From a virus, in IMG/VR virus record IMGVR_UViG_3300008952_002488, positions 1-64,000 of that record: a stretch of 64,000 bases of DNA. One strand, written 5' to 3'. The notes beneath the pieces were generated by a model. The model ran no database searches and was not told the DNA's origin. It saw only the letters and a list, made by a program, of their open reading frames with translations. Shown here one piece after another: positions 1,145 to 51,256 of the stretch (positions are counted from its first letter, which is position 1; each line of letters starts with the position of its first letter). The translations under genes were made by a program, and so were the position numbers.

Positions 1145-1249
1145 ATGAAACTCGTACTTCACAAGTTGGTTAATCTTTTTAATGATAAGCACTGTTGCTG
1201 TTGCTGCGGATGCTGCTCCTGCTCGGGGTGCAAAGGAGAATGCAAGTGA
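1145..1249 (+). CDS. Cysteine-rich 34-residue peptide
   Basis: A short ORF with a GGGGGG-containing Shine-Dalgarno region just upstream and a candidate late element 21 bases before the ATG. It encodes 34 residues: a 16-residue amphipathic, basic N-terminus followed by an 18-residue tail holding ten cysteines, including a run of five. Such density suggests metal binding (metallothionein-like) or a disulphide or acylated peptide. Its TGA (1247-1249) overlaps the GTG start of the next gene at 1246, so the pair is probably coupled. I know of no named family. Good translation signals and exact overlap favour a real gene; its size leaves doubt. Confidence 0.6.
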   Translation: MKLVLHKLVNLFNDKHCCCCCGCCSCSGCKGECK

Positions 1250-1710
1250 AAATTAAAGAATCTAAGCTAAGAGAAATTATAAAACAAACGATCTATACAG
1301 AGGTTGGTAGGCGGGCTATTAACGAAGGCCGCATTGATGAACTTTTTGGTTTATTTGGTGGCGGCAAGAAAGGGAAGAAGGGTAATGTTGTTACTTTAGA
1401 TAATCCCGATAAACACACCGGACAGCTTCAGAAAGCTTTTAATGAAATTGGTGGAGCAATGTCAGGCATGGGTGCAAAAGCTATTCCACAATTATTTTCA
1501 AATTTGGCAAAGGCTTTTGCTAAAGGTGGGACAGCCCCTCACGACGAAAACCTTCTTGCTAAAGCTATGATTGAATTTAAAGACCTGAAAGCAAAAGGTT
1601 CGATGCGTGGCTTTGATGGCGTTGAAGAGATGTTGCTTAGTCTAAAGAACAAGCAAATAGGTGACCAGTCCGTTGATAAATTTATGAATGCAATGCTGAA
1701 GCTAACCTAA
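1246..1710 (+). CDS. Tagged small protein, long-tag subfamily (candidate capsid-packaged protein)
   Basis: I choose the GTG at 1246 because AAGGAG ends 7 bases upstream; the ATG at 1240 is too close to that site. The N-terminus V-K-I-K-E-S-K-L-R-E-I-I-K is the shared basic amphipathic tag. It runs on to a site resembling a prohead-protease cut, A-I-N-E followed by GRIDELFG. The product is about 154 residues: after the tag comes a Gly/Lys linker (FGGGKKGKKG) and then a mostly helical domain. A paralogue at 8644 shares the extended leader almost residue for residue (IYAEVGRKVLAEGRVDEFLGGLFGGG) but diverges afterwards. By analogy with T4 internal proteins I infer packaging into the head; the mature function is unknown. 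Confidence 0.75.
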   Translation: MKIKESKLREIIKQTIYTEVGRRAINEGRIDELFGLFGGGKKGKKGNVVTLDNPDKHTGQLQKAFNEIGGAMSGMGAKAIPQLFSNLAKAFAKGGTAPHDENLLAKAMIEFKDLKAKGSMRGFDGVEEMLLSLKNKQIGDQSVDKFMNAMLKLT

Positions 1711-1722
1711 TTGGGATAAAAA

Positions 1723-2910
1723 ATGAATCTCAAAGATCACTTAATAGAACTTATTAACGAAGTCACTCAAGGTGAGATGGAGTTTGCTGAATTAGAAGCA
1801 GCCCGTCAAAACTACAAAGAAAATTTTAGAGACGACGAGGCACGCCACCAGTTTGGAATGATGGTAGAAAAACTCGTAGAACCTATTATGAGTGAGATGG
1901 GACTTTTTTTGGAGGCTGAAGCATTTTATAATCGTGGCGAGATTGTGTTTACCAACTATAAGAACATAGATGTAACGATTGACCCGCTTGGGATGATGGG
2001 AAGATATGATGTTCAGGTGACACCACTCGCTGGCTCGGAAGGCGAAATCAACCCAATGGAGATAAGCCTTGATAGCATGAAAGGCGTCGCCCAATTTATC
2101 AAAGATGAATACCGGGATCAACTATCCCGAGGCGGAACATATGAACAACCACCAAGAGGAATGGTCGGCGAACCAGAAGGACAAATGGAATTGCCCTTAC
2201 CCAGGGAGAGTAAAATGAGAATTACAAAATCACAACTACAACAAATTATTCGGGAAGAAACCAAAAACCTCAAAGAAGCCGCTTCTCGGGAACAGATTGA
2301 AAACTATCTCAGAGACATAGCCGACGGCATGGCTGCCGACGGGCTGAACCCCATGGCAATCAAAATGGGTCTCAACGATGAGTTCATGGATAACTTTGCC
2401 GGAATGGGCGTTCCCTATGGTGCGTTTGAGGAATTTATAGAAGAACTAGCAATGGACGCCGGAGGTGGCATTCGTGTGGAGAACAAAACGAAAATCACGA
2501 AGACTCAACTACAGCAAATCATCAAAGAAGAGATGGAAGCTGAACTTAGCGAAGATAAGTACGCCACCGAGGATGACCGCCCTCTGGGAACAGGTCGCTC
2601 TTTGATGAGTGCCGAAGACGCAAAAAAAGCATCCAGAATGGCTGACAGGTTATATAGCATTCTCGGACCAGACAGTAGCGTTGACTCAGCAGCCAGAATT
2701 TTGGTTCGGCGACTCTCTTACCTCCTGAAGAGGGGTATCGCTGGTGGGCGTCCCGAACCCGAAGGACTGGGAGGACCCTCTTCTGCGGCAGAAATGGAAG
2801 ATTACGAAAGCGATTATCGTGACCCGCCAAGCAAGCCACTCAAAACGGGCAAAGGTCGCCGAGGACCAAGCAAGGCTCAACTTGATATGATGAAGGACTA
2901 CGACATATGA
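1723..2910 (+). CDS. Three-module fusion of tagged proteins (candidate polyprotein)
   Basis: A 395-residue protein built from three units. Unit 1 (1-164) starts with M-N-L-K-D-H-L-I-E-L-I-N-E, a tag-like helix ending in I-N-E. Unit 2 begins at residue 165 (ATG at 2215) with the full tag MRITKSQLQQIIRE. Unit 3 begins near residue 255 with TKITKTQLQQIIKE, where the expected ATG reads ACG. The internal ATG at 2215 still has a GGGAGAG purine stretch about 4 bases upstream, so independent internal initiation is possible. Each unit carries its own I-x-E, so a gp21-type protease could cut the chain into separate proteins. It ends with ATGA overlapping the next tagged gene. The function of the mature domains is unknown. 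Confidence 0.8.
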   Translation: MNLKDHLIELINEVTQGEMEFAELEAARQNYKENFRDDEARHQFGMMVEKLVEPIMSEMGLFLEAEAFYNRGEIVFTNYKNIDVTIDPLGMMGRYDVQVTPLAGSEGEINPMEISLDSMKGVAQFIKDEYRDQLSRGGTYEQPPRGMVGEPEGQMELPLPRESKMRITKSQLQQIIREETKNLKEAASREQIENYLRDIADGMAADGLNPMAIKMGLNDEFMDNFAGMGVPYGAFEEFIEELAMDAGGGIRVENKTKITKTQLQQIIKEEMEAELSEDKYATEDDRPLGTGRSLMSAEDAKKASRMADRLYSILGPDSSVDSAARILVRRLSYLLKRGIAGGRPEPEGLGGPSSAAEMEDYESDYRDPPSKPLKTGKGRRGPSKAQLDMMKDYDI

Positions 2911-3236
2911 AAATCACAAAATCACAACTACGAAAGATTATCAAAGAGGAACTCAAAGAAGCCGGACTCCCACACAGTATGCGGTCAGGAAGATCTATGG
3001 GCGACTTAGACAGGGAAGCAAAAATGAGAGAAACAGATTTCCTCGCTAAGAAGTCAACAGAACTTGACCTCGCCAGAGACGCCGCCCGACCTGCTGACCC
3101 GATTGGACCAGATGATGCCTATGCAATTGCCGAGGTACTTACGGACTTGGGCTTTACTCTTACACGAGGCGGAATGAACAAGTTTGCTGATTTCCTTATT
3201 GACCTAGAAGCCTCCGAAGATTTACGGAGAACATAA
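2907..3236 (+). CDS. Tagged small protein (MKITKSQLRKIIKE leader)
   Basis: A 109-residue protein whose first 14 residues are the canonical tag, ending I-I-K-E at 11-14. The rest is charged and helical, with a small conserved-looking domain near the C-terminus (DDAYAIAEVLTDLGF onward). It overlaps the preceding gene by ATGA and the next by one base, so it sits inside a strictly coupled run of tagged genes. There are no cysteines, membrane segments or recognised catalytic motifs. I infer a capsid-targeted protein cut after Glu14; the domain function is unknown. Confidence 0.8.
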   Translation: MKITKSQLRKIIKEELKEAGLPHSMRSGRSMGDLDREAKMRETDFLAKKSTELDLARDAARPADPIGPDDAYAIAEVLTDLGFTLTRGGMNKFADFLIDLEASEDLRRT

Positions 3237-3499
3237 TGAAAATCACCAAGTCTCAACTACGAAAGATCATTAAAGAAGAACTCCAAGCGGAAGCAGCCGA
3301 AGACCCTCGTGCCCCATCGCCCAAGTCTTATGAATATCCCGATGCTGGCAGCAGCTTCCGAAGAGCGGTAATGAACATGGTCCTTCAAAATGTTGACCTA
3401 TCGGTGCCCCCCGGAAAAAGAGAACAACTCATCAACGACATTCAGTTGGCGTTTGATGCCGCCGGCATCGGCGGACCTATTAGCAGGATGGAACAATAA
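3236..3499 (+). CDS. Tagged small protein (MKITKSQLRKIIKE leader)
   Basis: An 87-residue protein with a tag identical to its upstream neighbour through residue 15 (MKITKSQLRKIIKEEL). Past the tag the sequence is unrelated: an acidic Pro-rich linker and a helical segment (SSFRRAVMNMVLQNVDL). The start overlaps the previous stop by one base, and GGAG lies about 10 bases upstream. Identity limited to the leader supports a portable targeting sequence rather than simple whole-gene duplication. Function unknown. Confidence 0.8.
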   Translation: MKITKSQLRKIIKEELQAEAAEDPRAPSPKSYEYPDAGSSFRRAVMNMVLQNVDLSVPPGKREQLINDIQLAFDAAGIGGPISRMEQ

Positions 3500-3789
3500 T
3501 GAAAATCACAAAGACCCAACTACGAAAGATTATCAAAGAAGCCATCGGCGAAGAGAACGCTTTGATGAAGACTATTAATCGCTGGTCCGAAGAAGGAAAA
3601 GATGTTCCTGTCGGAAAAACGGTAGGAAGAGCAGAGCGCAGCGACCAACTAGACGCAATTCTACAACACATGAGCACGGACCTCGGAAAAGCCATGGATG
3701 TTGTTTCTTACTTGGTAATGAACACTGACCAAGCCGTCCTTGATAAGTGGTTTGAAGGACGAGGCTTGCTCGGAGACCCAGGAGCATAA
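3499..3789 (+). CDS. Tagged small protein (MKITKTQLRKIIKE leader)
   Basis: A 96-residue protein with the tag at 1-14 ending I-I-K-E, followed by AIGEENAL and a helical domain (about 25-90) with a conserved-looking core (ILQHMSTDLGKAMDVVSYLV). It has a one-base overlap with the gene before and a one-base gap to the next start, so it belongs to the same polycistronic run. No enzyme motif is visible. It is interpreted as candidate head-packaged cargo. Confidence 0.8.
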   Translation: MKITKTQLRKIIKEAIGEENALMKTINRWSEEGKDVPVGKTVGRAERSDQLDAILQHMSTDLGKAMDVVSYLVMNTDQAVLDKWFEGRGLLGDPGA

Positions 3790-3790
3790 A

Positions 3791-4048
3791 ATGAAAATAA
3801 CAAAACAACAACTACAAAAAGTTATTAGAGAAGAAGTCACAAAGGCTCTGCGTGAAGACGCCAGCGACGACACCTTTGAAATGGTGGATGTAATCGTCCA
3901 GGCACTAGGACCACAACAAGCCCTTGAAGAACTAGTCCAAGCTATGGAACGCTCCAACGCCCAAGACCTTCTTGGTTATGTTATGCAAATGCACGACATG
4001 CGTATGCCGGGCGACGAAGTTGAAGACTACAAGCCCAGCGATTTTTAG
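3791..4048 (+). CDS. Tagged small protein (MKITKQQLQKVIRE leader)
   Basis: The start is set at the ATG at 3791, because the tag begins there and the previous gene ends at 3789. The 85-residue product has the tag at 1-14 ending V-I-R-E and a second possible cut site at A-L-R-E (19-22). An acidic helical domain follows, rich in Met and Gln, with no Cys. It is part of the coupled run of tagged genes. Function unknown. Confidence 0.78.
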   Translation: MKITKQQLQKVIREEVTKALREDASDDTFEMVDVIVQALGPQQALEELVQAMERSNAQDLLGYVMQMHDMRMPGDEVEDYKPSDF

Positions 4049-4057
4049 GCAAACAAA

Positions 4058-4267
4058 ATGAAAATCACAAAATCTTTACTTCAACAGATTATCAAAGAAG
4101 AACTCCTCAAAGAGCGAGTTTCTTCTGGGGTTGAAGAGATTGACGAGAAGATACAAGAAGTAGAGGATTTCATCAGAGAAAGAATAGATTCTCTAGACAT
4201 GATTGATTTTGCCGCACTACTTGGCGCTTTGAAGGTAAGAATAAAAAATAAGCTCGGACAAGAATAG
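4058..4267 (+). CDS. Tagged small protein (MKITKSLLQQIIKE leader), last of the run
   Basis: A 69-residue protein with the tag ending I-I-K-E at residue 14, followed by a single predicted long acidic helix (VEEIDEKIQEVEDFIRERID). It is the smallest member and closes the first run of tagged genes, 64 bases ahead of the recombination nuclease gene. With so little beyond the tag it may act as a structural filler or internal peptide once cleaved, but that is conjecture. Confidence 0.75.
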   Translation: MKITKSLLQQIIKEELLKERVSSGVEEIDEKIQEVEDFIRERIDSLDMIDFAALLGALKVRIKNKLGQE

Positions 4268-4331: not shown

Positions 4332-7300
4332 ATGGTGCGGATAGCACATTTTGGGGATACCCATATCAAAAACCTGAAATATCATTATGAATATCGTAAG
4401 GCATTTGAGCATATCTACGAGACCCTGCGGAGGGAGAACGTAGATTACATTGTTCATTGTGGCGACTTGGCTCACACAAAAACACAACTCTCACCAGAGT
4501 ATTTTGAGCTAGCCACAGATTTCCTAAAGAACTTGGCTGACATCGCCGAGACCCATATCATCCTCGGCAATCACGACGGCAACCTACGGAACAGCAGCCG
4601 CCAAGATGCTATCACTCCAATTGTGGAAGCACTTAACCACCCAAGTCTAATTCTACACAAGTATTCCGGGGAAATGTTTCTGGAGGATAATCTCTCCTTA
4701 AATATAATGTCCATTTTTGACGAAACCAATTGGCTCGACCCCGCCGACCCAGACGCAATCAACATCGCTCTTTATCACGGAGCAATTAATAATAGCCAAA
4801 CAGACCTCGGCTGGGTGATGGACCACGGCGACCACGACATTTCGGTGTTTGACAAGTTTGACTATGCCATGTTGGGCGACATCCACAAGACCAATCAGGT
4901 TCTCAACGAGAGCGGGACTATCCGCTATTGTGGCTCTACTATCCAGCAAAATCACGGCGAGACAAACGACAAGGGCTTTTTGATTTGGGACATCAAAAGC
5001 AAAACCCACTATGATGTGAAGCATCACCTCGTCAAAAATGTCAAACCCTTTATGACGATTGAACTCACAGAGAAGGGCAACATCCCACGCAAGTTGGATA
5101 TCCCAGAAGGTGCCCGACTGCGTGTGGTGACGCACCACAAAGTCTCACTAGACAAAATCCGCCGTGTGATGGATATTGTCAAAACCCGTTTCAAGCCTGA
5201 GAGCCTCTCTTTTGTAAATAAAGCGGGACTAAAACGAGACAGCGTAAATGTTGACGACCTTGGCAATACGGAGAACCTACGAGACCCCGCAGTCCAAGAG
5301 CGATTAATTCGGGAATACCTAAAAGAATATGAACCCGATACCAAGACATTAGAAAAGGTTTTCCAACTAAATTCCAAGTACGACAGCTATGTCAACGGCG
5401 ATGAGGCTGGGCTACGAAATGTAGAGTGGTCGCTGAAAAAGATGGAGTGGGACAACCTATTCAATTACGGAGAAGGCAACACCGTCAATTTTGAGAAACT
5501 CAACGGCGTTGTCGGCATCTTCGGTAAAAACTATTCAGGCAAGAGTTCTGTTGTTGACAGTATGCTTTACACGGTGTATAATTCAATTAGCAAGAACAAC
5601 CGCAAGAACCTAAACATCATTAACCAGAATAAGCCCTCTGGCTGCGGACGAGTCGAGATTGATGTATCAGGCAAGACCTACATCATTGAGCGGAAGTCCG
5701 AGAAGTACACTCGCAAACTTCACGGAGAAGAAACCGAAGAAGCCAAGACCGATGTAGAGTTCACGGTGATTGACCCAGCCACCAACGAGGAAACTAGCCT
5801 CAACTCGCTGGATCGCAACGGCACAGACAAAGCAATTCGGCGAATCTTTGGAACAATTGACGACTTTTTGCTAACAAGTATGTCCAGCCAGATGGGTGCG
5901 ATGACCTTCATCAACGAGGGTTCAACCAAGCGCAAGGAAATCCTCGCCAAATTTTTAGACCTTGACCAGTTTGAGAAGAAGTTTAGGCGCTCTAAGGAGG
6001 ACAGCATAGAAACCCGAGCCCTGCTCAGAAAATTGGAAGATAATACTTTTGATGAAGATATTACGCAACTCCTCGGAGAACTGACCGATAATGAAAAAGC
6101 AAGGGAAAAGCAGGAAAGGAAATGCGAGAAACTAACCACCGAGTTAGAGACCATTTCCGAGCGAGTCAAAGAGATTGATGGACTTTTCGCATCTGCCCCT
6201 GTTGAACTTATCAACATCGGAAAAGAGACAGCAAGACTTGCGACAGCAGGACAAGAGCGGTCTGATTACAATCTCAAAATTGCCCAGACTAAAAACCAAA
6301 AGAAAGATGTTTTGGAACAAGCGAAAGTCCTCAAAGGACTGCTAGACAAAACAGATGTGTCAGCACTCAAAGAAAAGATTACAGAGTGCGAAGGCATCCA
6401 AAAAGAACTCACCAGCTTAGAAGCAGAGATAAATCTGCGGGAAACCCAAAAAGAAAACTACGAGAAGAAGGTTAGTATTCTCGGCGAAGTGCCCTGCGGA
6501 CCCGAGTTCTCCCATTGTAAATTTATCAAGGACGCCTATGAGTCCAAGTCTCTGCTGGGTGACTGCCGCAAAAGTCTGATGGCTCTCCGCCGCCGCCACA
6601 ACCAGTTGACAACCAAACTGGAAGGTATGGATGTAGAGACACTAGAATCAGAGCGGAACCTCTACAACGACAGGGACAAGGAATATGCTGACCTCTGCAC
6701 CGAGGCAACCAACCTTGACCTATCTTTGGCGCAGATAAAAAATAAACTCCACCTCCTCACCAACGAGATGGCAAGCATCAAAACAAAAATTGAGGTTTAT
6801 GAATTAAACAAGGAAGCAATTGAGAACCGAGAGGAACTCATCAAAGAGCAAGATGACCTCAAAGAAAAGTCCATCAAAATGGAAAGCGACATTGTTATCT
6901 GCGAAACCAAGGTGCTTGACCTTGTAAAACAGCACGGCGGCATTGAAACCCAGATTGAAAACATCAAAGACAAACAACAAGAACTGGAAGACCTGCGGAC
7001 TGACTACGCTGCCTACGATTTGTTCATGCGCTGCACTCATCCTAATGGCATCAGTTATGATGTGGTGAAGCGGATGCTACCTCTTATCAACGAGGAGATC
7101 AGCACGGTGCTTGCCAACGTCACCGACTTCGACATCTTTTTCGAGGCAGAAAAGAATAAATTAGACATCTTCATCAAACATCCAAAGTACGAAGCACGAC
7201 CTTTAGAGATGGCTTCTGGAGCAGAAAAAACGCTCGCAGCCATCGCCATCCGCATCGCCCTAACCAATGTGTCAACCCTACCAAAATCTGACATTATGAT

Positions 7301-7484
7301 TATGGATGAACCGGGCACAGCCTTGGACGCCGAAAACCTTGAAGGCTTTATGCGAGTGATGGAAATGATCAAGGGCTACTACAAAACTGTGCTTTTGATT
7401 ACTCACTTGGATAGTCTCAAAGATATTGCGGATATGACTATTGACATTGAACGTCAAGATGGGTATGCTTTCGTATCTCAATAA
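4332..7484 (+). CDS. Single-chain Mre11-Rad50 (SbcD-SbcC, gp47-gp46) fusion
   Basis: A 1050-residue fusion of the two subunits of the recombination nuclease. Residues 1 to about 260 are the Mre11/SbcD phosphoesterase: GDTH at 8-11, CGD at 43-45, GNHD at 79-82, then YHG and GDIHK. From about 370 the Rad50/SbcC ATPase begins, with Walker A FGKNYSGKSS near 400. A long coiled coil follows, with a CX6C zinc-hook-like apex near 720 (PCGPEFSHCKF). The ABC signature SGAEKT lies near 960 and Walker B IMIMDEPGTALD near 988. In T4, gp46/47 resects ends for recombination-dependent replication and host DNA breakdown. In T4 and bacteria these are separate genes, so a covalent 1:1 fusion is unusual. Confidence 0.93.
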   Translation: MVRIAHFGDTHIKNLKYHYEYRKAFEHIYETLRRENVDYIVHCGDLAHTKTQLSPEYFELATDFLKNLADIAETHIILGNHDGNLRNSSRQDAITPIVEALNHPSLILHKYSGEMFLEDNLSLNIMSIFDETNWLDPADPDAINIALYHGAINNSQTDLGWVMDHGDHDISVFDKFDYAMLGDIHKTNQVLNESGTIRYCGSTIQQNHGETNDKGFLIWDIKSKTHYDVKHHLVKNVKPFMTIELTEKGNIPRKLDIPEGARLRVVTHHKVSLDKIRRVMDIVKTRFKPESLSFVNKAGLKRDSVNVDDLGNTENLRDPAVQERLIREYLKEYEPDTKTLEKVFQLNSKYDSYVNGDEAGLRNVEWSLKKMEWDNLFNYGEGNTVNFEKLNGVVGIFGKNYSGKSSVVDSMLYTVYNSISKNNRKNLNIINQNKPSGCGRVEIDVSGKTYIIERKSEKYTRKLHGEETEEAKTDVEFTVIDPATNEETSLNSLDRNGTDKAIRRIFGTIDDFLLTSMSSQMGAMTFINEGSTKRKEILAKFLDLDQFEKKFRRSKEDSIETRALLRKLEDNTFDEDITQLLGELTDNEKAREKQERKCEKLTTELETISERVKEIDGLFASAPVELINIGKETARLATAGQERSDYNLKIAQTKNQKKDVLEQAKVLKGLLDKTDVSALKEKITECEGIQKELTSLEAEINLRETQKENYEKKVSILGEVPCGPEFSHCKFIKDAYESKSLLGDCRKSLMALRRRHNQLTTKLEGMDVETLESERNLYNDRDKEYADLCTEATNLDLSLAQIKNKLHLLTNEMASIKTKIEVYELNKEAIENREELIKEQDDLKEKSIKMESDIVICETKVLDLVKQHGGIETQIENIKDKQQELEDLRTDYAAYDLFMRCTHPNGISYDVVKRMLPLINEEISTVLANVTDFDIFFEAEKNKLDIFIKHPKYEARPLEMASGAEKTLAAIAIRIALTNVSTLPKSDIMIMDEPGTALDAENLEGFMRVMEMIKGYYKTVLLITHLDSLKDIADMTIDIERQDGYAFVSQ

Positions 7485-7906: not shown

Positions 7907-8572
7907 ATGAAAAACATGAAGCTTATTATGGAGTCATGGAGAACCTATGTTACAGAACAAGGTATGCTCGACGACCCAGGTTTAGCACCTTCCGGTGGAA
8001 AAGTCACAGGAAATCCCCAAATAGACCAAAAAATGTTTGATTATTTTAAGGAGTTTTTGCCTGGTGGTTCTCGCCACGGAGAAGATCCTGAACTTTGCGA
8101 ACTGGATATTGAGGGCACGAAACTTATGTGTCAAGATAACAAGGGTCTTGCAAGAAGCGTAATGCCTCAACTTAAAACAGCAGACGATCAAGATTTGGCA
8201 GAAGCGTTTGCCGACTATCTTGAGAGCCAAGGACACTCAGTATCAGAGACAACAGAACTTGCTTCGAACCTGAAAGCCACACAAAACCAATTAAAAGGAG
8301 CAAAGGTCAACGGCATGAACTCAGCCCTTGTGTCCACCGATGGAAAACATGATAAAATTCGAGCCCCAATTATTGTTAGCAGTGATAACTATGTTCTCGA
8401 CGGACACCACCGTTGGGCGTCTCAGGTAGTTTACGACTTTATGAATGGCACGCCAGGCGTTGAAGTTGCCGTCAGAAAGGTAAGTCTTCCCATCGATGAA
8501 CTGCTGGAGCTATCTAAGTATGATGGAGAGTTTTGCCAGACTAATGGGTGTGTTCCCCCCCAAGGGAGATAA
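7907..8572 (+). CDS. ParB-like domain protein with a tag-like N-terminus
   Basis: A 221-residue protein. The C-terminal half contains VSSDNYVLDGHHRWAS (about residues 163-178), the DGHHR core typical of ParB/sulfiredoxin-fold domains, some of which are nucleases or CTP-binding switches. The N-terminus MKNMKLIMESWRTYVTEQ resembles the capsid-targeting leaders of phage internal proteins (compare T4 MKTYQEFIAEA), with L-I-M-E and Y-V-T-E as possible cut sites. Two cysteine pairs are present. A ribosome site lies 6-8 bases upstream and a candidate late element further up. I infer a DNA- or nucleotide-acting protein that may be packaged; the enzymatic activity is unproven. Confidence 0.75.
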   Translation: MKNMKLIMESWRTYVTEQGMLDDPGLAPSGGKVTGNPQIDQKMFDYFKEFLPGGSRHGEDPELCELDIEGTKLMCQDNKGLARSVMPQLKTADDQDLAEAFADYLESQGHSVSETTELASNLKATQNQLKGAKVNGMNSALVSTDGKHDKIRAPIIVSSDNYVLDGHHRWASQVVYDFMNGTPGVEVAVRKVSLPIDELLELSKYDGEFCQTNGCVPPQGR

Positions 8573-8643: not shown

Positions 8644-9096
8644 ATGAAAATTAAAAAGTCTAATTTAGAAAAACTAGTTCGAGAAGCCATTTACGCAGAG
8701 GTGGGTCGAAAGGTCCTCGCTGAAGGTCGTGTTGATGAATTTCTTGGCGGACTTTTCGGCGGCGGCGACATCGACCTTGGAGAAAAGAGTGCCGCAGCGC
8801 AGGAGCTAATGTATTACAAACCAGAAAGCGGCGGCGTTGGAAAAAAGATCCAAGATGCGATTGATGCGGGGTTGGATGATTACGTGACAATTCAACAAGT
8901 TTGGAACAAATTGGGCGAAGCCGTAGTCAATGGTCATTTTTTGGACGGCAAGGACCCAATGGTCAAAAAGATTAAGAAAAGCTGGGCTAATAAACAAGAG
9001 GAGCCCCGCCGATCCATGTATGAGATGATCTTCGAAAAAGGCTCGTCACTCGACGTACAGAAAGCCATTGAAGCGCAAATTGGAAGGGCAAAATAA
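8644..9096 (+). CDS. Tagged small protein, long-tag subfamily (paralogue of 1246)
   Basis: I place the start at the ATG at 8644, preceded by AGGAGGGG. The 150-residue product has the extended leader MKIKKSNLEKLVREAIYAEV continuing to V-L-A-E before GRVDEFLGGLFGGG. V-L-A-E is a good L-x-E prohead-protease site and lines up with A-I-N-E in the paralogue at 1246. After the glycine-rich junction the two proteins are unrelated, so the leader plus linker was shuffled as a unit. The mature domain is a basic helical protein of unknown function. It is followed by another tagged gene one base later. Confidence 0.78.
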   Translation: MKIKKSNLEKLVREAIYAEVGRKVLAEGRVDEFLGGLFGGGDIDLGEKSAAAQELMYYKPESGGVGKKIQDAIDAGLDDYVTIQQVWNKLGEAVVNGHFLDGKDPMVKKIKKSWANKQEEPRRSMYEMIFEKGSSLDVQKAIEAQIGRAK

Positions 9097-9097
9097 A

Positions 9098-9421
9098 ATG
9101 AAAATAACAAAAACATACCTGAGAAAAGTTATTAAAGAAGAACTAAGCAATCTTAAAGAAGCGGAAGACCCTAAAGAATTGGTGGGACTTATGGTGAGTA
9201 AGTTGGCCCCTCTAAAGGGAAAAATTGAAGCTGCCTCAAAAACAGTAGACCTCAAACTAGCCCTCGTAAAGGCTTTGTTATCTCACCCAGAAACATTTGC
9301 AATGGACGAAGGCGAACTAGACAAAGCATTTGCAATGCTCAAGAGATCTGTCCAAAAAGGACAAGAAACTGCCAAACAGCAAGCAAAAGCCCCCGCCCCC
9401 GCAACAGGCCGGCCTGAATAA
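9098..9421 (+). CDS. Tagged small protein (MKITKTYLRKVIKE leader)
   Basis: A 107-residue protein; the start at 9098 follows the previous stop by one base. The tag ends V-I-K-E at residue 14, with a second possible site N-L-K-E at 18-21. A helical domain follows, with a repetitive hydrophobic pattern, and the end is a Gln/Ala/Pro-rich tail (KAPAPATGRPE). It belongs to the second cluster of tagged genes (7907-9421). Function unknown. Confidence 0.78.
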   Translation: MKITKTYLRKVIKEELSNLKEAEDPKELVGLMVSKLAPLKGKIEAASKTVDLKLALVKALLSHPETFAMDEGELDKAFAMLKRSVQKGQETAKQQAKAPAPATGRPE

Positions 9422-9973: not shown

Positions 9974-11110
9974 ATGGTAGATATTCCTACACTTGACATC
10001 GAGGATTACGATCCCGACCTAAACGAAGAAGAGGAGGCTGTTGAGGACAAGGCCGGCGGCGCTCTTACTTATGCTATTGTAGGCGCTGGCCAAGGCGGCG
10101 GACGTATGGCTAAAGCGTTTTATGATATGGGTTATACCAAGACGGTTGCTGTAAATACAGCCCGTTCTGATTTAAATGGGCTTGATATACCTGACAATCA
10201 AAAATTCCTTGTTGACGAACACGGCGAGCAAGGTGCCGGCAAAGACCAAAAAAAGGCTCAAGCCGCAATCGAACGAAAGGAGCAAGAAGTATTCAATTTG
10301 TTCCGTGAAGTTTTCGGTAGCAACGTTGACCGTATCTTGATTTGCTTAGGTGTCTCCGGCGGCTCTGGCGGTGGAACAGTTAACACTCTTATTAAGGTTG
10401 CCAAGAAGTATTTCACTTATATTGGCGTAGAGGATGTTGATAAGCGTGTTGGTGTTGTGGCATCTCTGCCCACAGCAGGTGAGTCCGCATCCCCCACCGT
10501 TGCCAAGAATGCTCATGCTCGGATCACTGATCTTTGCGTGCAAGCAGAAAAAGGAAAGATTGCCCCTCTTATTATGGTGGATAACGAAAAGATTAAAAAG
10601 CTTTACCCCAAACTTACAGTGAAGAAGTTTTGGAAGACCATCAACAACACAGTTGCAGGTTTGTTCCATGTATTTAACGTCCTTGCCAATAAGGATTCAG
10701 AGTACACCACGTTTGATGCCACGGATTATGATAGCGTTATGCGCCAGTCTGGGTGTATGATTATGGGCGTGACAACTGTTAAAGATGTTGAGAATGAAAC
10801 CGCTGTCTCAACTGCGCTTAAAAAGAATCTTGAGAAAACACTTCTCGCCGAAGGTTTTGACCTGACTACGGCAACGGGCGCTGCTTGTATTGTGGTGGGT
10901 GGAGAAGTCATTTTTGAGGAGACTGCTGGACTGATGGACAACATTGAGTTCGGGTTTGACACTTTGGCTGCTCTAACAGGTGGAGCCATTATTCATCGTG
11001 GCATCTATGAAGATGATAAGCGTGATAAGCTGGTTGCCTATACTTTGGTTAGCGGTCTCCTGCGTCCTGCCAAACGTATCGAGGGGCTCAAAAAGTTCCT
11101 GAAGAAATAA
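9974..11110 (+). CDS. FtsZ/tubulin-like GTPase
   Basis: A 378-residue member of the tubulin/FtsZ superfamily. An acidic N-terminal extension (1-27) precedes the nucleotide-binding domain: GAGQGGGR at 37-44, the tubulin signature region GGSGGGT at 129-135, and VVASLPTAGE at 161-170. The segment around 245-258 (TTFDATDYDSVM, then GCMIMG) aligns with the FtsZ T7 loop and following helix. Hydrolysis requires that loop, so the protein could polymerise and turn over GTP. Phage tubulins such as PhuZ position DNA or the phage nucleus; this one is more FtsZ-like and sits directly upstream of the packaging genes. AAGGAG lies 9 bases before the ATG. A second divergent homologue is at 41174. Confidence 0.85.
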   Translation: MVDIPTLDIEDYDPDLNEEEEAVEDKAGGALTYAIVGAGQGGGRMAKAFYDMGYTKTVAVNTARSDLNGLDIPDNQKFLVDEHGEQGAGKDQKKAQAAIERKEQEVFNLFREVFGSNVDRILICLGVSGGSGGGTVNTLIKVAKKYFTYIGVEDVDKRVGVVASLPTAGESASPTVAKNAHARITDLCVQAEKGKIAPLIMVDNEKIKKLYPKLTVKKFWKTINNTVAGLFHVFNVLANKDSEYTTFDATDYDSVMRQSGCMIMGVTTVKDVENETAVSTALKKNLEKTLLAEGFDLTTATGAACIVVGGEVIFEETAGLMDNIEFGFDTLAALTGGAIIHRGIYEDDKRDKLVAYTLVSGLLRPAKRIEGLKKFLKK

Positions 11111-17705: not shown

Positions 17706-18299
17706 ATGACTAAGAAATATGTCTTACAAGAGTTTATGAATCTGGATTATAGCGATGAACTTCTTACGGAAGAAGAGCGTGAAGGCAACAAGAGTGGTAT
17801 CCACCTCGTTTTGGCAGGCAAAATTCAAGCCGCTGGTAAAAAGAACGGAAATGGACGTATTTACCCCCGACCCATTTTGGAACGGGAAATGAAAAACTAT
17901 GAAAAGCTTGTCAAAGAAGGTCGAGCCATCGGCGAACTCGACCACCCTGACAGTTCCGTAGTAGAATTAAAAAATGCTAGCCACCTTGTCACAGAAGTGT
18001 GGTGGAAGGGCGACGATGTGATGGGAAAAATGAAAATTCTTAACACGCCCGCCGGTAAAATAGCCAAAGATCTCGTAAAGGGCGGCGTCCAGCTTGGTAT
18101 TTCCAGTCGTGGACTGGGGTCTACCCGCCAAGAGGGCAGCACCACTATGGTTGAGGACGATTTTCAGCTTCTTTGCTTTGACTTGGTTTCGGAACCAAGC
18201 ACTAGCGGGGCTTATTTGGTTGCCGAAGGCAAAGTGAACACCCACCTCACCAAGGCAGACCGTATCAACCGTGCCCTGAACGACGTTTTAGGGGATTAA
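17706..18299 (+). CDS. Prohead core protease (gp21-like)
   Basis: A 197-residue serine protease of the T4 gp21 type. The catalytic His lies in GELDHP (His80) and the nucleophile is in QLGISSRGLGS (Ser133/134), with spacing close to T4 gp21. This enzyme is built into the prohead and matures it by cutting scaffold, major capsid and internal proteins after L/I-x-E. The major capsid precursor (L-L-K-E at 55-58) and the many tagged proteins in this window carry such sites. AAGGAG lies 6 bases before the ATG; a GC-rich hairpin precedes it. Confidence 0.9.
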   Translation: MTKKYVLQEFMNLDYSDELLTEEEREGNKSGIHLVLAGKIQAAGKKNGNGRIYPRPILEREMKNYEKLVKEGRAIGELDHPDSSVVELKNASHLVTEVWWKGDDVMGKMKILNTPAGKIAKDLVKGGVQLGISSRGLGSTRQEGSTTMVEDDFQLLCFDLVSEPSTSGAYLVAEGKVNTHLTKADRINRALNDVLGD

Positions 18300-18301
18300 T
18301 A

Positions 18302-19423
18302 ATGTCAGCCGGTTTTGGTGCCAGTGGTAGTGGCGGGCAAGGATTTGCCATTAAACTTGAGGCTGACGGTGATACAAAGCTAGGAAATAGCGATGGTGAC
18401 TTGCATCAAGTTACGGGCACCCTCCACTTAAACGACAATGTATTTTTCTTGGCGAACGGAAGGCTCGGCATCGGCACTGACTCCCCCGACTATACTTTGG
18501 ATGTAGCTGGAAATATAGGGGTTGACGAAAGGATTTACCACAACGGAGATGCCGACACCTACATGATATTCACTGATAACAGGGTTCAATTTGAAGTAGG
18601 CAATCTCAAGATGCTTGGGATGCATAAGAAAGCGTCGGCCCCTCATCAAGTAACTGTCAATAGTAATAACAACAACGTTGACTTTGTTGTTAACAGCAAC
18701 AATAGTAGTACATCTCCAATACTGAGGGCTGACGCATCTACCGCCAGAGTGGGAATCGGAACATCTTCCCCAGACGGACTCCTGCATCTCGACAACGGAA
18801 CTTCCAACACAGAGTTGATTATTGAAAAAGATGCTGGAACATCTGGGAGTATTGTGTTTCATAATGCGGGCACCCGAGAAGCAGAAATAGCTTATTCTAC
18901 TGGCGAGGAAATTGAGGTACGCCATCATGTTGCGGATAAAGACATTACACTTAATGTTGTTTCCGGAAGTTCAGGTATGACGCTAGCCACAGCAGATGCG
19001 AGCACTAACGCATTTGTGGTAAATGGACAATTTGCACGAGGCACAGCAACAGCCAACCTTGGGTCAGGGACAACCTCTACGCTTGAGCCATTTGATGCCG
19101 AGGCTGGGGTCATTCTTTTAACGGTGTCCAGTGTCACGGTAAATCCAGCCGTAGGAGGGCATGTTTGTACCATCGCCGACGGCAAGGTCGCAGGACAGAT
19201 ATTAACAGTTGTTTTGGTCACAACTGCTCTTGATGGGTCTGGGGGAGAGACTGATATGGGAGTAATTATCTTTCAGCCCGCCAACCAGTTAAACTCATCG
19301 GAAACATCCACAGTCATGGGTGCGGCCCTCGGAGGGGAACCGCTGGGGGCTTCTTTTCAGTATATTTGGACAGGCAGCGCCTGGTGCCGTCTATCCACCA
19401 ACCGAGCCGGCGGGAACGTATAA
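18302..19423 (+). CDS. Fibre- or decoration-like repeat protein in the head module
   Basis: A 373-residue, Gly/Ser/Thr/Asn-rich, beta-strand protein. It contains two copies of a phage-fibre motif, GRLGIGTDSPDYTLDVAG (about 51-68) and VGIGTSSPDGLLHLDNG (about 150-166), as found in tail-fibre shafts. A more globular C-terminal part ends FQYIWTGSAWCRL. It lies two bases after the prohead protease and ahead of scaffold and capsid genes, not with tail genes. A head fibre or capsid decoration is therefore likely, though a displaced tail fibre is possible. Confidence 0.65.
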   Translation: MSAGFGASGSGGQGFAIKLEADGDTKLGNSDGDLHQVTGTLHLNDNVFFLANGRLGIGTDSPDYTLDVAGNIGVDERIYHNGDADTYMIFTDNRVQFEVGNLKMLGMHKKASAPHQVTVNSNNNNVDFVVNSNNSSTSPILRADASTARVGIGTSSPDGLLHLDNGTSNTELIIEKDAGTSGSIVFHNAGTREAEIAYSTGEEIEVRHHVADKDITLNVVSGSSGMTLATADASTNAFVVNGQFARGTATANLGSGTTSTLEPFDAEAGVILLTVSSVTVNPAVGGHVCTIADGKVAGQILTVVLVTTALDGSGGETDMGVIIFQPANQLNSSETSTVMGAALGGEPLGASFQYIWTGSAWCRLSTNRAGGNV

Positions 19424-19474: not shown

Positions 19475-19861
19475 ATGAAAAAATCGGAACTTAAAAATAT
19501 TATTAAAGAATGCGTCAAAGAAGTGATCTTTGAGGAAGGCGTCCTCTCGGGCATCATCTCGGAAGTAGCCCAGGGATTACAGGGTGCATCCTTGGTCCAA
19601 GAATCCACACCACCGCCCAAGCCACAACGGCAAAATGTGTCGGAAGCCAAAAAGCAAGTTTTGTCAGCCATTGGGAACAATGGATATGACCATGTAAAAC
19701 AGAAGTTTTCTAACCCTGAGCTTTTTGAAGGAACGACCCCGATACCTGGCGATAGCAAGGGTCCTTTAGCGGGAGTTGCCGGAGGTGACCCTGGAGTAGA
19801 TATTAGTAACCTGCCTGGAATGGGCAAATGGGGAGCAGTTGCTTCCGGAATAAGAAAGTGA
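19475..19861 (+). CDS. Tagged prohead-core candidate (MKKSELKNIIKE leader)
   Basis: I prefer the ATG at 19475 over the upstream GTG at 19451 because the tag begins there. The 128-residue product starts with a shortened tag, I-I-K-E at 9-12, followed by C-V-K-E. A low-complexity Pro/Gln middle and a C-terminal conserved-looking stretch follow (LPGMGKWGAVASGIRK). It is the only tagged gene within the head operon, between protease and scaffold, where T4 carries small prohead-core proteins gp67/gp68. I infer a core or internal protein processed by the protease. Confidence 0.7.
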   Translation: MKKSELKNIIKECVKEVIFEEGVLSGIISEVAQGLQGASLVQESTPPPKPQRQNVSEAKKQVLSAIGNNGYDHVKQKFSNPELFEGTTPIPGDSKGPLAGVAGGDPGVDISNLPGMGKWGAVASGIRK

Positions 19862-20690: not shown

Positions 20691-21695
20691 ATGTCAAATA
20701 TGCTGGATCAGGCAATCGTTGACGCCCAAGCACTTCGAGAAGCAGCTATCAAGAGTGCTGAAAAAGCGGTGGTTGAAAAATATGCCCCCGAAGTAAAACA
20801 AGCGATTCAGCAGCTTTTGGAACAGGATCCAGGCGAAGAGGAAATGGGTCTAGACCCCCTGGCAGGAGAAGAGGAAGAGGAAAGTCCGATCATGGCTGAC
20901 GTCCCTATGTCCCACGACCCTGACCAAGCAGAAGAAGAAATAGTCGTTGTGGATCTTGATCAGATTATTGCTGCTGCCGAAGACGACGCTGACGCAGGCG
21001 AAGAAGAATTTGAGCTTGGGCGGGATGATCTAGCTGCCGAGGTGGGTATTGACTTAGAAGAGCCCATCGCCGCAGCAAATAGAGATGATGAAATCGAAAT
21101 CAACGAAAATGAGTTGATGGATATGTTTAAAGAAATGCTTGTTGTTGACGTAGACGAGCAAGATATAAAAGTTGCCGAAGAGGCTGTTGAGGCTGAAAAG
21201 GAAGAAGAGGCTGAAGAAGAAGTTTTTGTAGCATCTGTCGCCGATGACGGAATGGATAAAAAAGACATAGAAGATGCAAGCAGAGAAACAGCCCGCCTTC
21301 AGATGAAGAATGAGCAACTGACGAAACAAAACAAAGAATTAAAGAGCCTTATCATTAAGGTTAAAGATAGATTAGAAGAAGTTAACCTATCAAATGCTAG
21401 GTTACTATATGCGAATCGTGTTCTACAAGACACCTCCTTGAATGAGCAGCAAAAAACTAAAATTGCTGAGTTGGTCGGTGGCGCACGGTCGGTGGAAGAA
21501 GCGAAGATGGTCTTTGAGACCCTTCAAAAGACAATGGCGGGTAATTCTGGAAAGAAATCCACACAATCGTTGTCTGAAGCAGTATCAAGAAGATCTTCAG
21601 TTATTCTTAGTGGACGCCGCACGGAAGAAAACACCGACGGTAATCCGGTAGTAAATCGCTGGGCTACGCTCGCAGGTATAAACAATAAAAAATAA
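20691..21695 (+). CDS. Prohead scaffold (gp22-like)
   Basis: A 334-residue, extremely acidic protein (long Asp/Glu stretches from about 45 to 190). A central coiled coil (ETARLQMKNEQLTKQNKELK) leads to a helical C-terminus (RLLYANRVLQDTSLNEQQK) typical of T4-type scaffolds. The ribosome site is strong (GGGGGAAC region) and the major capsid gene follows within 18 bases. The scaffold fills the prohead and is degraded by the gp21-like protease before DNA entry. Function follows from position, composition and the conserved C-terminal region. Confidence 0.85.
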   Translation: MSNMLDQAIVDAQALREAAIKSAEKAVVEKYAPEVKQAIQQLLEQDPGEEEMGLDPLAGEEEEESPIMADVPMSHDPDQAEEEIVVVDLDQIIAAAEDDADAGEEEFELGRDDLAAEVGIDLEEPIAAANRDDEIEINENELMDMFKEMLVVDVDEQDIKVAEEAVEAEKEEEAEEEVFVASVADDGMDKKDIEDASRETARLQMKNEQLTKQNKELKSLIIKVKDRLEEVNLSNARLLYANRVLQDTSLNEQQKTKIAELVGGARSVEEAKMVFETLQKTMAGNSGKKSTQSLSEAVSRRSSVILSGRRTEENTDGNPVVNRWATLAGINNKK

Positions 21696-21712: not shown

Positions 21713-23488
21713 ATGTCTATGATTGACACACTAACAGAAGGCATCAGACAACGCTCTCTTGCCAATGAAGGTGAAGCTCTACTCTCCAAGTGGGAGAAGA
21801 CTGGTCTTCTTGAGGGACTTAGTGACCACAGCCGTGGTTACATGGCTCGCCTCTTGGAAAACCAGGCTGCTCAATTGCTCAAGGAGCAAACCACGATGCA
21901 AGCAGGAGATGTTGAAGGCTTTGCCTCAGTTGCTTTCCCAATCGTTCGCCGTGTTTTCGGTGGATTGTTGGCTCAGGACCTTGTTTCGGTCCAACCCATG
22001 AGTCTACCCAGTGGACTCATTTTCTTTATGGACTTCGTGTACAGTCCCGATAGCGCCACAGGCGACGCTGACCAAAGTGGTAGTGTCCACCGCCTCGGTG
22101 CTACTGGCGACGAATCCATTTACGGTCAAGGACGAGTCGGTCGTCAGATCATGAGCGGTGCCAATTTGGCTGACGCTGCTGGTCAGAAGAGCTTCTACGA
22201 CCTTGGTAACGGATTTTCGAGCCCCACAGGTTCGATCACGGGTATTACCATCATTGCTTCGGGTACGTTCGGTGCGAACGAATCTTCGGCTGATGTTAAG
22301 ACCCTTCGTCGTGACCCAGATCTGATCTCGGGTACTTCGACGTTCGTTATTGGTGAGTTCGACATTGCTAACAGCGATGGTGTGAACACTGACAACCTTG
22401 CTGCTCTCGTGGTTTCGGGTACCAATGGTGCTGGTAACCTTGGTGTCAAGGCTGTTGCAGATACTAACGGTGGCGGATACCACGCCCGCCGCTTGACCCA
22501 ATTCTCGGGAACAAGAACCGACAGAATTCTTGTTGTGGGCGTTAGCCGCAACGCTTCGCTTTCATCGGTTCAGCTTTCTGAGTCCATGGGTGGATTTACT
22601 GCTGGCGGTGCCTCCGTCGGTGGTATTGTGTACTTCCCGAAGACTGACGAATTTGTCGCCGCAGGCGATCCTTTCGGCGCTCTTGCAGGTAGTAACAGCA
22701 ACCAAAGCTGGGGACTTGAAGCTAATCAGCAGATCCCAGAGATCGACATCAAGGTGGACAGCACCGCTGTCACAGCGGTCACCAAGAAGCTCAAGGCTAA
22801 ATGGAGCCCCGAGCTTGCTCAGGACTTGAACGCTTATCACAACCTCGACGCTGAAGTTGAGTTGACAAGCATTCTTTCCGAGCAGATCGCTCTTGAAATC
22901 GATCAAGAGATCCTTTCGGATCTGGTCGCTGGTGCATCCGCTGACACGCTTTACTGGAGCCGTCGCCCTGGTAAGTTCCTTAGCCGCAATGACGGTAGCG
23001 ACCTTACCAACAGCTTGGCTCCGACCTTCACAGGTACGGTGAGCGAGTGGTACGAGACTCTTCTTGAGACCATTAATGATCTCAGTGCTCGTATGCACCG
23101 CAAGACGCTTCGTGGCGGCGCAAACTTCTTGGTTTGCTCTCCTGAAGTGGCTTCCCTCCTTGAGTTCACCAGTGGATTCAAGGCGAGCGTCAAGGCTGAC
23201 GAAGACAAGGGCTCTTGGGGCGCTGTCAACGTTGGTAGCTTGAGTCGCAAGATGGATATCTATGTTGATCCTTACTTCATCCGGAACGTGGTTCTGGTCG
23301 GACGTAAGGGAAGTAGCTTCCTTGAAAGCGGCTATGTGTACGCTCCGTATGTTCCGCTGCAAGTCACGCCGACCATTTTTGGTACAGAAGATTTCGTGCC
23401 CCGCAAGGGTGTCATGACTCGCTATGCCAAGAAGATGGTGCGTCCTGATATGTACGGGCTTGTTGTTGTCTATGATCTTAACGGTTAA
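21713..23488 (+). CDS. Major capsid protein precursor (gp23-like)
   Basis: A 591-residue homologue of T4 gp23. The N-terminal propeptide contains LLENQAAQLLKEQ (47-59); cleavage after L-L-K-E (Glu58) fits the prohead protease rule and the position of the T4 site. Conserved HK97-fold stretches include the core around KLKAKWSPELAQDLNAYHNL and EQIALEIDQEILSDL, and the C-terminal YVYAPYVPLQ and GVMTRYAKK. It is about 70 residues longer than gp23. The extra part appears to be a Gly/Ser/Thr-rich insertion between about 150 and 300. Codon choice is strongly biased (many GGT, GCT, CTT), as expected for very high expression. A rho-independent terminator follows. Confidence 0.95.
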   Translation: MSMIDTLTEGIRQRSLANEGEALLSKWEKTGLLEGLSDHSRGYMARLLENQAAQLLKEQTTMQAGDVEGFASVAFPIVRRVFGGLLAQDLVSVQPMSLPSGLIFFMDFVYSPDSATGDADQSGSVHRLGATGDESIYGQGRVGRQIMSGANLADAAGQKSFYDLGNGFSSPTGSITGITIIASGTFGANESSADVKTLRRDPDLISGTSTFVIGEFDIANSDGVNTDNLAALVVSGTNGAGNLGVKAVADTNGGGYHARRLTQFSGTRTDRILVVGVSRNASLSSVQLSESMGGFTAGGASVGGIVYFPKTDEFVAAGDPFGALAGSNSNQSWGLEANQQIPEIDIKVDSTAVTAVTKKLKAKWSPELAQDLNAYHNLDAEVELTSILSEQIALEIDQEILSDLVAGASADTLYWSRRPGKFLSRNDGSDLTNSLAPTFTGTVSEWYETLLETINDLSARMHRKTLRGGANFLVCSPEVASLLEFTSGFKASVKADEDKGSWGAVNVGSLSRKMDIYVDPYFIRNVVLVGRKGSSFLESGYVYAPYVPLQVTPTIFGTEDFVPRKGVMTRYAKKMVRPDMYGLVVVYDLNG

Positions 23489-50048: not shown

Positions 50049-50747
50049 ATGAAAAAGATTTTGAGCGAATGGAAAAAGTTTTTAAATGAATCCGGGTTTA
50101 ACCGAATCAAGAATATCCTTCAGGGCAACGTAGCCTCTGTGGGTACAGTTGGTTTTATGACAGGTGAAAACCCTATGGCGCAAAAGATGTCATCCAAAGA
50201 AAACCGGATGCTCAACAAAGAGTTGATGGCTTGGATGCGTGAGCGTGGCTACGGACCCATTCGCATTAGAGGTCGCTTTGGAAACATGGAGAGATCTATG
50301 ATGATTCCCAACATCACCCGAGAAGATATGGTGGAGGCTGGCAAATACTTCAACCAAGAATCGGTTATTTGGGGAGAGAAGACCGACGAGAATGCATTTT
50401 TATTTGAGTACATCGAAGGCGATGTCACCGTCCAGCGCCGTGATGTTGTCTTGTTTGATGATGAAGTCCAGGCCCGTGAGGATTTTTATTCCCAAGAAAG
50501 ACAGTCAGCCGGACGCAAATTTTATATCCCCTTCTTTGACGATCAGTATGAGATGGAAGAAGGACATGAATATGATTACGACTTGCCAAGTCTAAGCGAA
50601 ACCCAACGAGAACAGAACAAAGAACTTATTAAAGAAATCAACGATAGGATTAGTTACACTTTGGACGCTAGTCGAGCCCCTAAATCTCGCTGGCATCATC
50701 GCCAAGTCCTTCGGCTTAAACTTCAGGAACTAAAAAATAAGTTATGA
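50049..50747 (+). CDS. Tag-bearing protein with a DUF3293-like domain
   Basis: A 232-residue protein. The leader MKKILSEWKKFLNES ends F-L-N-E at residue 14, closely resembling the T4 internal-protein leader MKTYQEFIAEA. The core WMRERGYGPIRIRGRFGN, then MMIPNITREDMVEAG and YFNQESVIWG, resembles the DUF3293 pattern found in phage and bacterial proteins of unknown function. The C-terminus is a charged helix. It overlaps the next tagged gene by ATGA. I infer a capsid-packaged protein; the domain is of unknown activity. Confidence 0.72.
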   Translation: MKKILSEWKKFLNESGFNRIKNILQGNVASVGTVGFMTGENPMAQKMSSKENRMLNKELMAWMRERGYGPIRIRGRFGNMERSMMIPNITREDMVEAGKYFNQESVIWGEKTDENAFLFEYIEGDVTVQRRDVVLFDDEVQAREDFYSQERQSAGRKFYIPFFDDQYEMEEGHEYDYDLPSLSETQREQNKELIKEINDRISYTLDASRAPKSRWHHRQVLRLKLQELKNKL

Positions 50748-51256
50748 AAAAGATAATGGAAAACTTTAAAAAGTTTCTCGCCGAAGCGCAAAAGGGTGAC
50801 TATGAGGTTGGTGGCGAGTTGGTGCTATTCCACTACGCCCCAGTAGATGCGGAAGCAATTCTTGTAGACCCTAAGTACTTTGCGGACAGAGCCAAGAGAA
50901 GTTCCTTCACTAGAAATGAGTACGAAACAAGCACGGTCCCCAGAACTTTTTGGTATGTGGACCCGCAACAAAGAGAAAGACAAGTGGCTTCAGGACGCCA
51001 CTTGTATCAAGCCACAATCCCAGCGGGAGAAATCTATGACTTCAGAAACGACCCCGAAGGATACAAGAAAAAACATAGTCATCCAATTTATAAATTAAGA
51101 AAAGGCGAAGAGTGGAATACGATGCTAGAGGATATACGAGACAGCTATGCTGGTGTATACTATTCCCTGAGAGCTTTTGATGTAGTGTCGCTATTCGTAC
51201 CCTACGAGGCGACCCGAGTCCCACCCGAAGAACAAGCCCGATTAGAGGGCGAATAA
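50744..51256 (+). CDS. Tag-bearing protein, possibly ADP-ribosyltransferase-like
   Basis: A 170-residue protein with the leader MKKIMENFKKFLAEAQ; F-L-A-E with Glu at 14 is almost the T4 leader sequence. The domain has LVLFHYAPVDAEAILVDPKYF, TVPRTFWYVDPQQRERQV and LYQATIPAGEIYDFRNDP, faintly like small ADP-ribosyltransferase folds in phages (an HY motif near the start, later aromatic strands). If true it would parallel T4 Alt, a packaged ADP-ribosyltransferase. The sequence evidence for that activity is weak. Confidence 0.65.
   Translation: MKKIMENFKKFLAEAQKGDYEVGGELVLFHYAPVDAEAILVDPKYFADRAKRSSFTRNEYETSTVPRTFWYVDPQQRERQVASGRHLYQATIPAGEIYDFRNDPEGYKKKHSHPIYKLRKGEEWNTMLEDIRDSYAGVYYSLRAFDVVSLFVPYEATRVPPEEQARLEGE

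Follow-up and report, generated by a model that had tools for sequence, protein, structure and literature searches.

Short N-terminal leaders on many unrelated proteins of T4-related viruses as candidate capsid-targeting signals

Introduction

In phage T4, the internal proteins IPI, IPII and IPIII, and also Alt, carry a capsid-targeting sequence (CTS) of 10-19 residues, which is sufficient for packaging and is removed by the prohead protease gp21 (PMC9026906; PMC3012670). IPII and IPIII have MKTYQEFIAEA exactly in common and then diverge, while the core protein gp22 starts with MLKEQLIAEA, similar to the start of IPIII. This likeness is a parallel for any cargo leader that resembles the N-terminus of a core protein. 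It is after [LI]-x-E that gp21 cuts. Here, we analyse two leaders of comparable design in a stretch of 64,000 nucleotides (the window: bases 1-64000 of virus record IMGVR_UViG_3300008952_002488, which has 171,926 bp in total). The first, tag 1, has the consensus MKITKxQL(K/R)xIIKEEL, and the second, tag 2, the consensus MKLIMEN-W-x-x-[FY]-L-x-E. We consider it likely that both are capsid-targeting leaders analogous to the CTS of the T4 internal proteins.

As in T4, these are short N-terminal leaders on unrelated bodies that end in [LI]-x-E, in viruses with a gp21-type protease. T4 has a handful of cargoes, whereas here tag 1 alone stands on as many as 40 in one genome; in further contrast, the bodies are mostly acidic, two leader classes occur together and tag 1 holds two candidate sites. 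The giant phages SPN3US and phiKZ also have many internal head proteins, some of which a prohead protease trims of their propeptides (PMC5694885), but these propeptides mostly exceed 100 residues and have a motif of the A/S-x-E type, whereas here short leaders stand on many small proteins. In phage P1, an N-terminal signal sends DarB, and also a reporter, into the head (PMC9024508), although this was described for DarB and not for a set of many unrelated bodies with one leader. Neither leader was found described in the literature searched. A mechanism of this class was already known in T4. New, as far as we have searched, are its scale here, the sequences, the presence of two leaders and the resemblance to a core protein.

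A leader shared by unrelated proteins

A DNA-pattern scan of IMG/VR for tag 1 found at least 119 stretches and at least 354 tagged ORFs (open reading frames). The family counts that follow rest on the matches listed, among which 21 of the larger records have 3-40 copies apiece, a number in line with the proposal of an earlier note on this DNA that the set is far larger than that of T4. When bodies were clustered from residue 25 onward, 310 of them fell into 244 families (211 singletons), and what these families have in common is the first ~22 residues only, that is, a short N-terminal segment on otherwise unrelated proteins. In a conservation profile built with one protein per family, the information content is high at residues 1-16, falls to an intermediate level at 17-22 and reaches background from residue 23 onward. 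An unbiased profile search in all frames placed model position 1 at the start codon in 370 of 376 matches, 318 of these 370 having a sequence like a ribosome-binding site (RBS) upstream.

Tagged genes are arranged in operon-like, same-strand arrays with good RBSs. Such arrays, together with the common DNA found upstream of some junctions (ATGAATGGATTAGCAAC before unrelated bodies), would also suit a recombination cassette, where the 5′ coding DNA is shared as a gene-swapping hot spot and the peptide has no function. However, third codon positions of the tag vary near the limit set by its residues, and such free variation with the residues kept means that selection acts on the peptide and not on the DNA. 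Moreover, a clade that is deep by its capsid proteins has retained the tag, and the same peptide stands in a head-cluster protein (see below); we regard the cassette as very improbable. A conserved leader with variable bodies might also recall secreted or modified small peptides, such as bacteriocins or ribosomally synthesised and post-translationally modified peptides, but the bodies are mostly of 50-350 residues, some with enzyme domains, the leader ends in [LI]xE with no double-glycine motif, and the carriers are tailed-phage records, so that this origin is hardly credible.

With regard to flanking DNA, a conserved junction lies 5′ of the tag in contigs L049, L054, L085 and L124, where the preceding gene ends ...LIAILSMNGLAT and its stop codon overlaps the ATG of the tag. 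The last bases of this junction also stand before unrelated tagged genes in other contigs, and it may be a gene-swapping point. A recurrent upstream peptide string, TKYEWISN, was considered as part of the tag and rejected, being shared junction DNA. At the other end of the protein, a tag-like helix (IKxIIREVL) is present at the C-terminus of tagged proteins in L059 (4907-5434) and L091 (1671-2090); T4 Alt is likewise processed at its C-terminus.

The carriers of the tag are a large group of mostly marine T4-related viruses. The profile search of this genome and its relatives that the earlier note had suggested gives 10 clear copies of tag 1 in the 171,926-bp record, plus divergent ones, and many more across IMG/VR. 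The same profile has no matches in T4, RM378, XacN1, LR756511 and the cyanophages S-SKS1 and P-SSM7, nor in 149 other bacterial (Pseudomonadota) genomes; since copies are found here and none in the comparison genomes, the tag is not due to chance. The bare leader is too short for tblastn scoring. A cellular origin of the tag was rejected, as the pattern matches just 4 of 84,980 bacterial and archaeal genomes; these four assemblies include tag-dense contigs of 305 and 101 kb, and two of the four contain gp21.

In a tree of capsid proteins, one supported branch is tagged in 20 of 20 sequences, and its sister branch mixes tagged members (immuto, LR756508, L173) with untagged ones (Mel-JY01, RM378). 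The one cultured carrier found, Flavobacterium phage immuto, has a single tagged protein, immuto26A_191, with the N-terminus MKKSQLRQIIKEALDAS... and I-K-E12 followed by Ala13. The nearest relatives of the capsid protein in the window are those of the uncultured phage LR756508, Microcystis phage Mel-JY01, immuto and Rhodothermus phage RM378; as in Far-T4 phages, it is closer to RM378-type gp23 than to that of T4 or cyanophages. For reference, a gp23-like gene is present in 2446 of 50,697 phage records. Records L157 (8111-11966) and L164 (8270-12151), of ~240 and 290 kb, have a tandem pair of closely similar major capsid protein genes.

A protease consensus at the end of the leader

Almost every copy of tag 1 has I-x-E at residue 14, a frequency that we do not count as evidence because Glu14 was in the selection filter. 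No filter was applied to [LI]xE ending at residues 18-25. Such a motif occurs in 135 of 244 families, whereas permuting residues 16-26 within each protein gave 57.3 families (sd 6.1; z 12.7). Control motifs gave z values of at most 5.3, except the related [VM]xE (z 6.7). Ala, Gly or Ser follows the second [LI]xE in 52 of 141 cases, against 43 of 245 further downstream (P 4e-5), and follows Glu14 in 22 of 109 families without a second site, against 5 of 135 with one (P 5e-5); both P values are optimistic because the tags are kin to one another. The [LI]-x-E at the end of the leader is the consensus of the prohead protease, and the two-site pattern is that expected of alternative sites for one protease. 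The main cut would probably be near residue 22 rather than 14. The earlier note had placed the cut after Glu14, which these statistics do not favour as the main site (Glu21/22) and leave as a second or alternative one.

These motifs could also be merely the end of a helix for assembly or localisation whose docking partner lies elsewhere, for instance a replication compartment, a host protein or a membrane. In favour of such a helix, the single related protein that was modelled has one that is K/E-rich and amphipathic, [LI]xxE and [LI]xK are mildly enriched, and the bodies are acidic. However, the enrichment of [LI]xE is far above the controls, small residues follow the site, and E14-then-A compensates for the lack of a second site. 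Conservation also stops at the site in two unrelated leaders, and the tag is linked both with gp21 and with a gene of the head cluster (see below). We consider docking elsewhere rather unlikely.

Association with gp21 and a head-cluster protein

The window contains a T4-type head module (terminase, portal, gp21-type protease and capsid protein), which includes:

17706..18299, + strand, gp21-type prohead protease, presumed to do the processing (phrog_207, E 1e-51)
19475..19861, + strand, conserved head-cluster protein with an N-terminus resembling tag 1
20691..21695, + strand, acidic ORF directly 5′ of the capsid gene, with no family match
21713..23488, + strand, gp23-type major capsid protein (phrog_138, E 1e-71), inferred maturation site L-L-K-E58 then Q

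The protease and the gp23-like capsid protein are those named in the earlier note, including the L-L-K-E in the expected place, which ends at residue 58 (the T4 gp23 cut is at Glu65). In the capsid proteins of tagged phages, the inferred maturation site, aligned by eye with the T4 cut, reads [VL]-L-[RK]-E, mostly followed by Ala. The ORF at 20691 is presumed to be a gp22-type scaffold candidate, by position only. Between the protease and the head-cluster protein there is a tail-fibre-like protein (18302-19423), and a family with a similar start is also found in related head modules.

A gp21-type protease (phrog_207) is encoded by the same virus in 27 of 41 large tag-bearing records: 10 of 10 with at least 150 kb, 7 of 9 with 100-150 kb, and 10 of 22 smaller ones. 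The 14 records without gp21 look like fragments, because 12 of them also lack a T4-type portal and the other two have it at a contig end. A wide occurrence of the tag in phages without such a protease, which the earlier note had put forward as a reason to abandon the idea, was not seen among the records of at least 150 kb.

The head-cluster protein, of ~140 residues, is present in 19 of 20 head modules examined, and its gene stands directly or one gene after gp21 where gene order was inspected. Its N-termini resemble MAKITKRMLKGIVKECLVEILSEG or MKKSELKKVIKPLVKECIHEVLIEEG, and their profile is co-linear with that of the tag, with an hhalign score of 25.4; the highest score from 300 column shuffles was 17.7. 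Among 15 head-module families, the two subfamilies of this protein are the best two tag matches. AlphaFold models were poor, except for the N-terminal helix of this protein. We presume it to be a prohead core protein whose docking helix is imitated by the cargo and was the source of the leader or its model, and the shared N-terminus suggests a core-docking signal.

A second leader

The first pointer to a second recurrent N-terminus was ORF 7907. A pattern scan for tag 2 gave 99 stretches, from which 74 candidates with an RBS form 60 body families. The leader ends at [LIV]-x-E, with the terminal Glu in 88% of cases although neither scan nor filter required Glu14, and conservation falls two residues further on. 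There is a gp21 in 12 of the 15 largest carriers. Proximity of tag-1 to tag-2 genes, at 2 kb or less, is more frequent than at random (41 against 30), with all cases on the same strand. In this genome, at least three tag-2 genes are clear (7916, 50744 and 94117). The two tags have in common only the MK start, a helical pattern and the terminal [LIV]-x-E. Two unrelated leaders with the same design are more readily explained as targeting leaders processed by a protease than as general docking helices.

Tagged genes in the window

The adjacent tagged ORFs listed in the earlier note all exist, and those at 2907, 3236, 3499, 3791 and 4058 are separate ORFs with the Glu at residue 14 that it had seen in five of them. 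Copies beyond its list are 8644 (divergent), 9098, 67972 and 95250, to which the start of the head-cluster ORF at 19475 can be added. The tagged genes of the window are:

1246..1710, + strand, divergent tag-1 protein (MKIKESKLREIIKQTIY...AINE then G), paralogue of 8644; GTG start with AAGGAG upstream
1723..2910, + strand, three bodies in one open frame, with a decayed tag at 1723 and further tags at 2215 (ATG) and 2488 (ACG replacing ATG)
2907..3236, + strand, tag-1 protein, MKITKSQLRKIIKE14, candidate L-K-E18 then A
3236..3499, + strand, tag-1 protein, sole site I-K-E14
3499..3789, + strand, tag-1 protein, I-K-E14 then A
3791..4048, + strand, tag-1 protein, I-R-E14 and L-R-E22
4058..4267, + strand, tag-1 protein, I-K-E14 and L-K-E19
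7916..8572, + strand, tag-2 protein (MKLIMESWRTYVTE then Q)
8644..9096, + strand, divergent tag-1 protein (MKIKKSNLEKLVRE then A...VLAE then G), paralogue of 1246
9098..9421, + strand, tag-1 protein, L-K-E21 then A
50744..51256, + strand, tag-2 protein (MKKIMENFKKFLAE then A)

ORF 1246 has Gln at residue 14, and its GTG start is better spaced to AAGGAG than the ATG at 1240. The fusion reported earlier is indeed a fusion, with the refinement that 1723-2910 holds two internal tags and that its own start is decayed, as the homologue in the relative L009 bears the recognisable tag MKLTASDLRQIIQEVTQGEMEF there. In L009, the first body also runs in frame into the next tag, and the part homologous to 2488 is a separate ATG-started gene preceded by a stop codon. 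ORF 1723-2910 is a candidate cleavable polyprotein.

Other genes of the window include a Site-2 protease (308-1111; Peptidase_M50, E 3e-57) immediately 5′ of the tag array and a single protein of 1050 residues (4332-7484) that fuses an SbcD-type nuclease and an SbcC-type ATPase (gp47/gp46). A TubZ/FtsZ-like tubulin, in a T4-type phage, is encoded at 9974-11110 (PF00091, E 1.8e-9, with a TubZ-like C-terminal domain).

Tagged bodies

Most tagged bodies match nothing, and a library of defence genes gave no matches among 100 tagged proteins. As tag-1 bodies, there are a GNAT acetyltransferase (L105:76-627) and a FliG C-terminal domain (L016:117-491), which passes the Pfam cut-off with E 1.8e-8 and is weakly supported by PDB sequences. 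The latter product is a possible injected flagellar-motor protein, while FliG_C as a general cargo was rejected, with none in 45 records searched. Tag-2 bodies include GNAT, M23 peptidase, GDSL hydrolase, zeta-toxin-like kinase and RNA-ligase phosphodiesterase-like domains. These domain-bearing cargoes are plausible early-acting injected proteins, whose role would compare with that of T4 IPI* and Alt.

Discussion

The portability of the leader, its N-terminal position, the stop of conservation at an [LI]-x-E resembling the inferred capsid-protein site, the site statistics, the link to gp21, the likeness to the head-cluster protein and the existence of tag 2 support the set of capsid-packaged proteins proposed in the earlier note. 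We infer packaging, cleavage and injection of the tagged proteins. The amphipathic helix of the leader would dock on the prohead core, as the N-terminus of the head-cluster protein would do, and many different proteins would thereby be enclosed in the prohead. The gp21-type protease would then cut after [LI]-x-E, mainly at 21/22 and/or at Glu14, and the freed bodies would be injected with the DNA. The MKLIMENWxxFLxE leader may serve another protein set in the same way.

Several observations weigh against targeting to the capsid. About 45% of tag-1 families have no second site, which leaves them Glu14 only. Late expression found no support, since no T4-type late promoter (TATAAATA/CTAAATA) was found 5′ of tagged genes. 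The small basic bodies of T4 internal proteins are not seen here: the median pI is 5.0, with 21% above 8, unlike T4 IPII and IPIII (pI ~9.6), so that DNA binding as in the basic T4 proteins is unlikely for most of these acidic bodies. Homology to the T4 leader MKTYQEFIAEA was not detected, as neither tag profile matches in T4, and tag 2 resembles that leader by eye only. Finally, the head-cluster protein is identified as a core protein by gene position only.

In a broader reading, to which we give an even chance, this deep clade of widespread viruses runs a modular protein-injection system with two leader classes, one of them modelled on a head-core protein, and with dozens of fast-changing effectors per virion (FliG-like, acetyltransferase, kinase, peptidase and RNA-end-processing proteins); many unexplained small genes would then be injected effectors of the first minute. 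In any case, the first 14-22 residues alone give hundreds of hypothetical proteins of widespread uncultured viruses a testable function, namely carriage in the head and injection. The leaders also offer a simple search for injected proteins of anti-defence or host takeover, and suggest new tags for capsid loading. If the capsid-targeting role is true, the idea of T4 internal proteins grows from a handful to as many as 40 per genome, and each of these viruses would inject its DNA together with a large and variable set of proteins.

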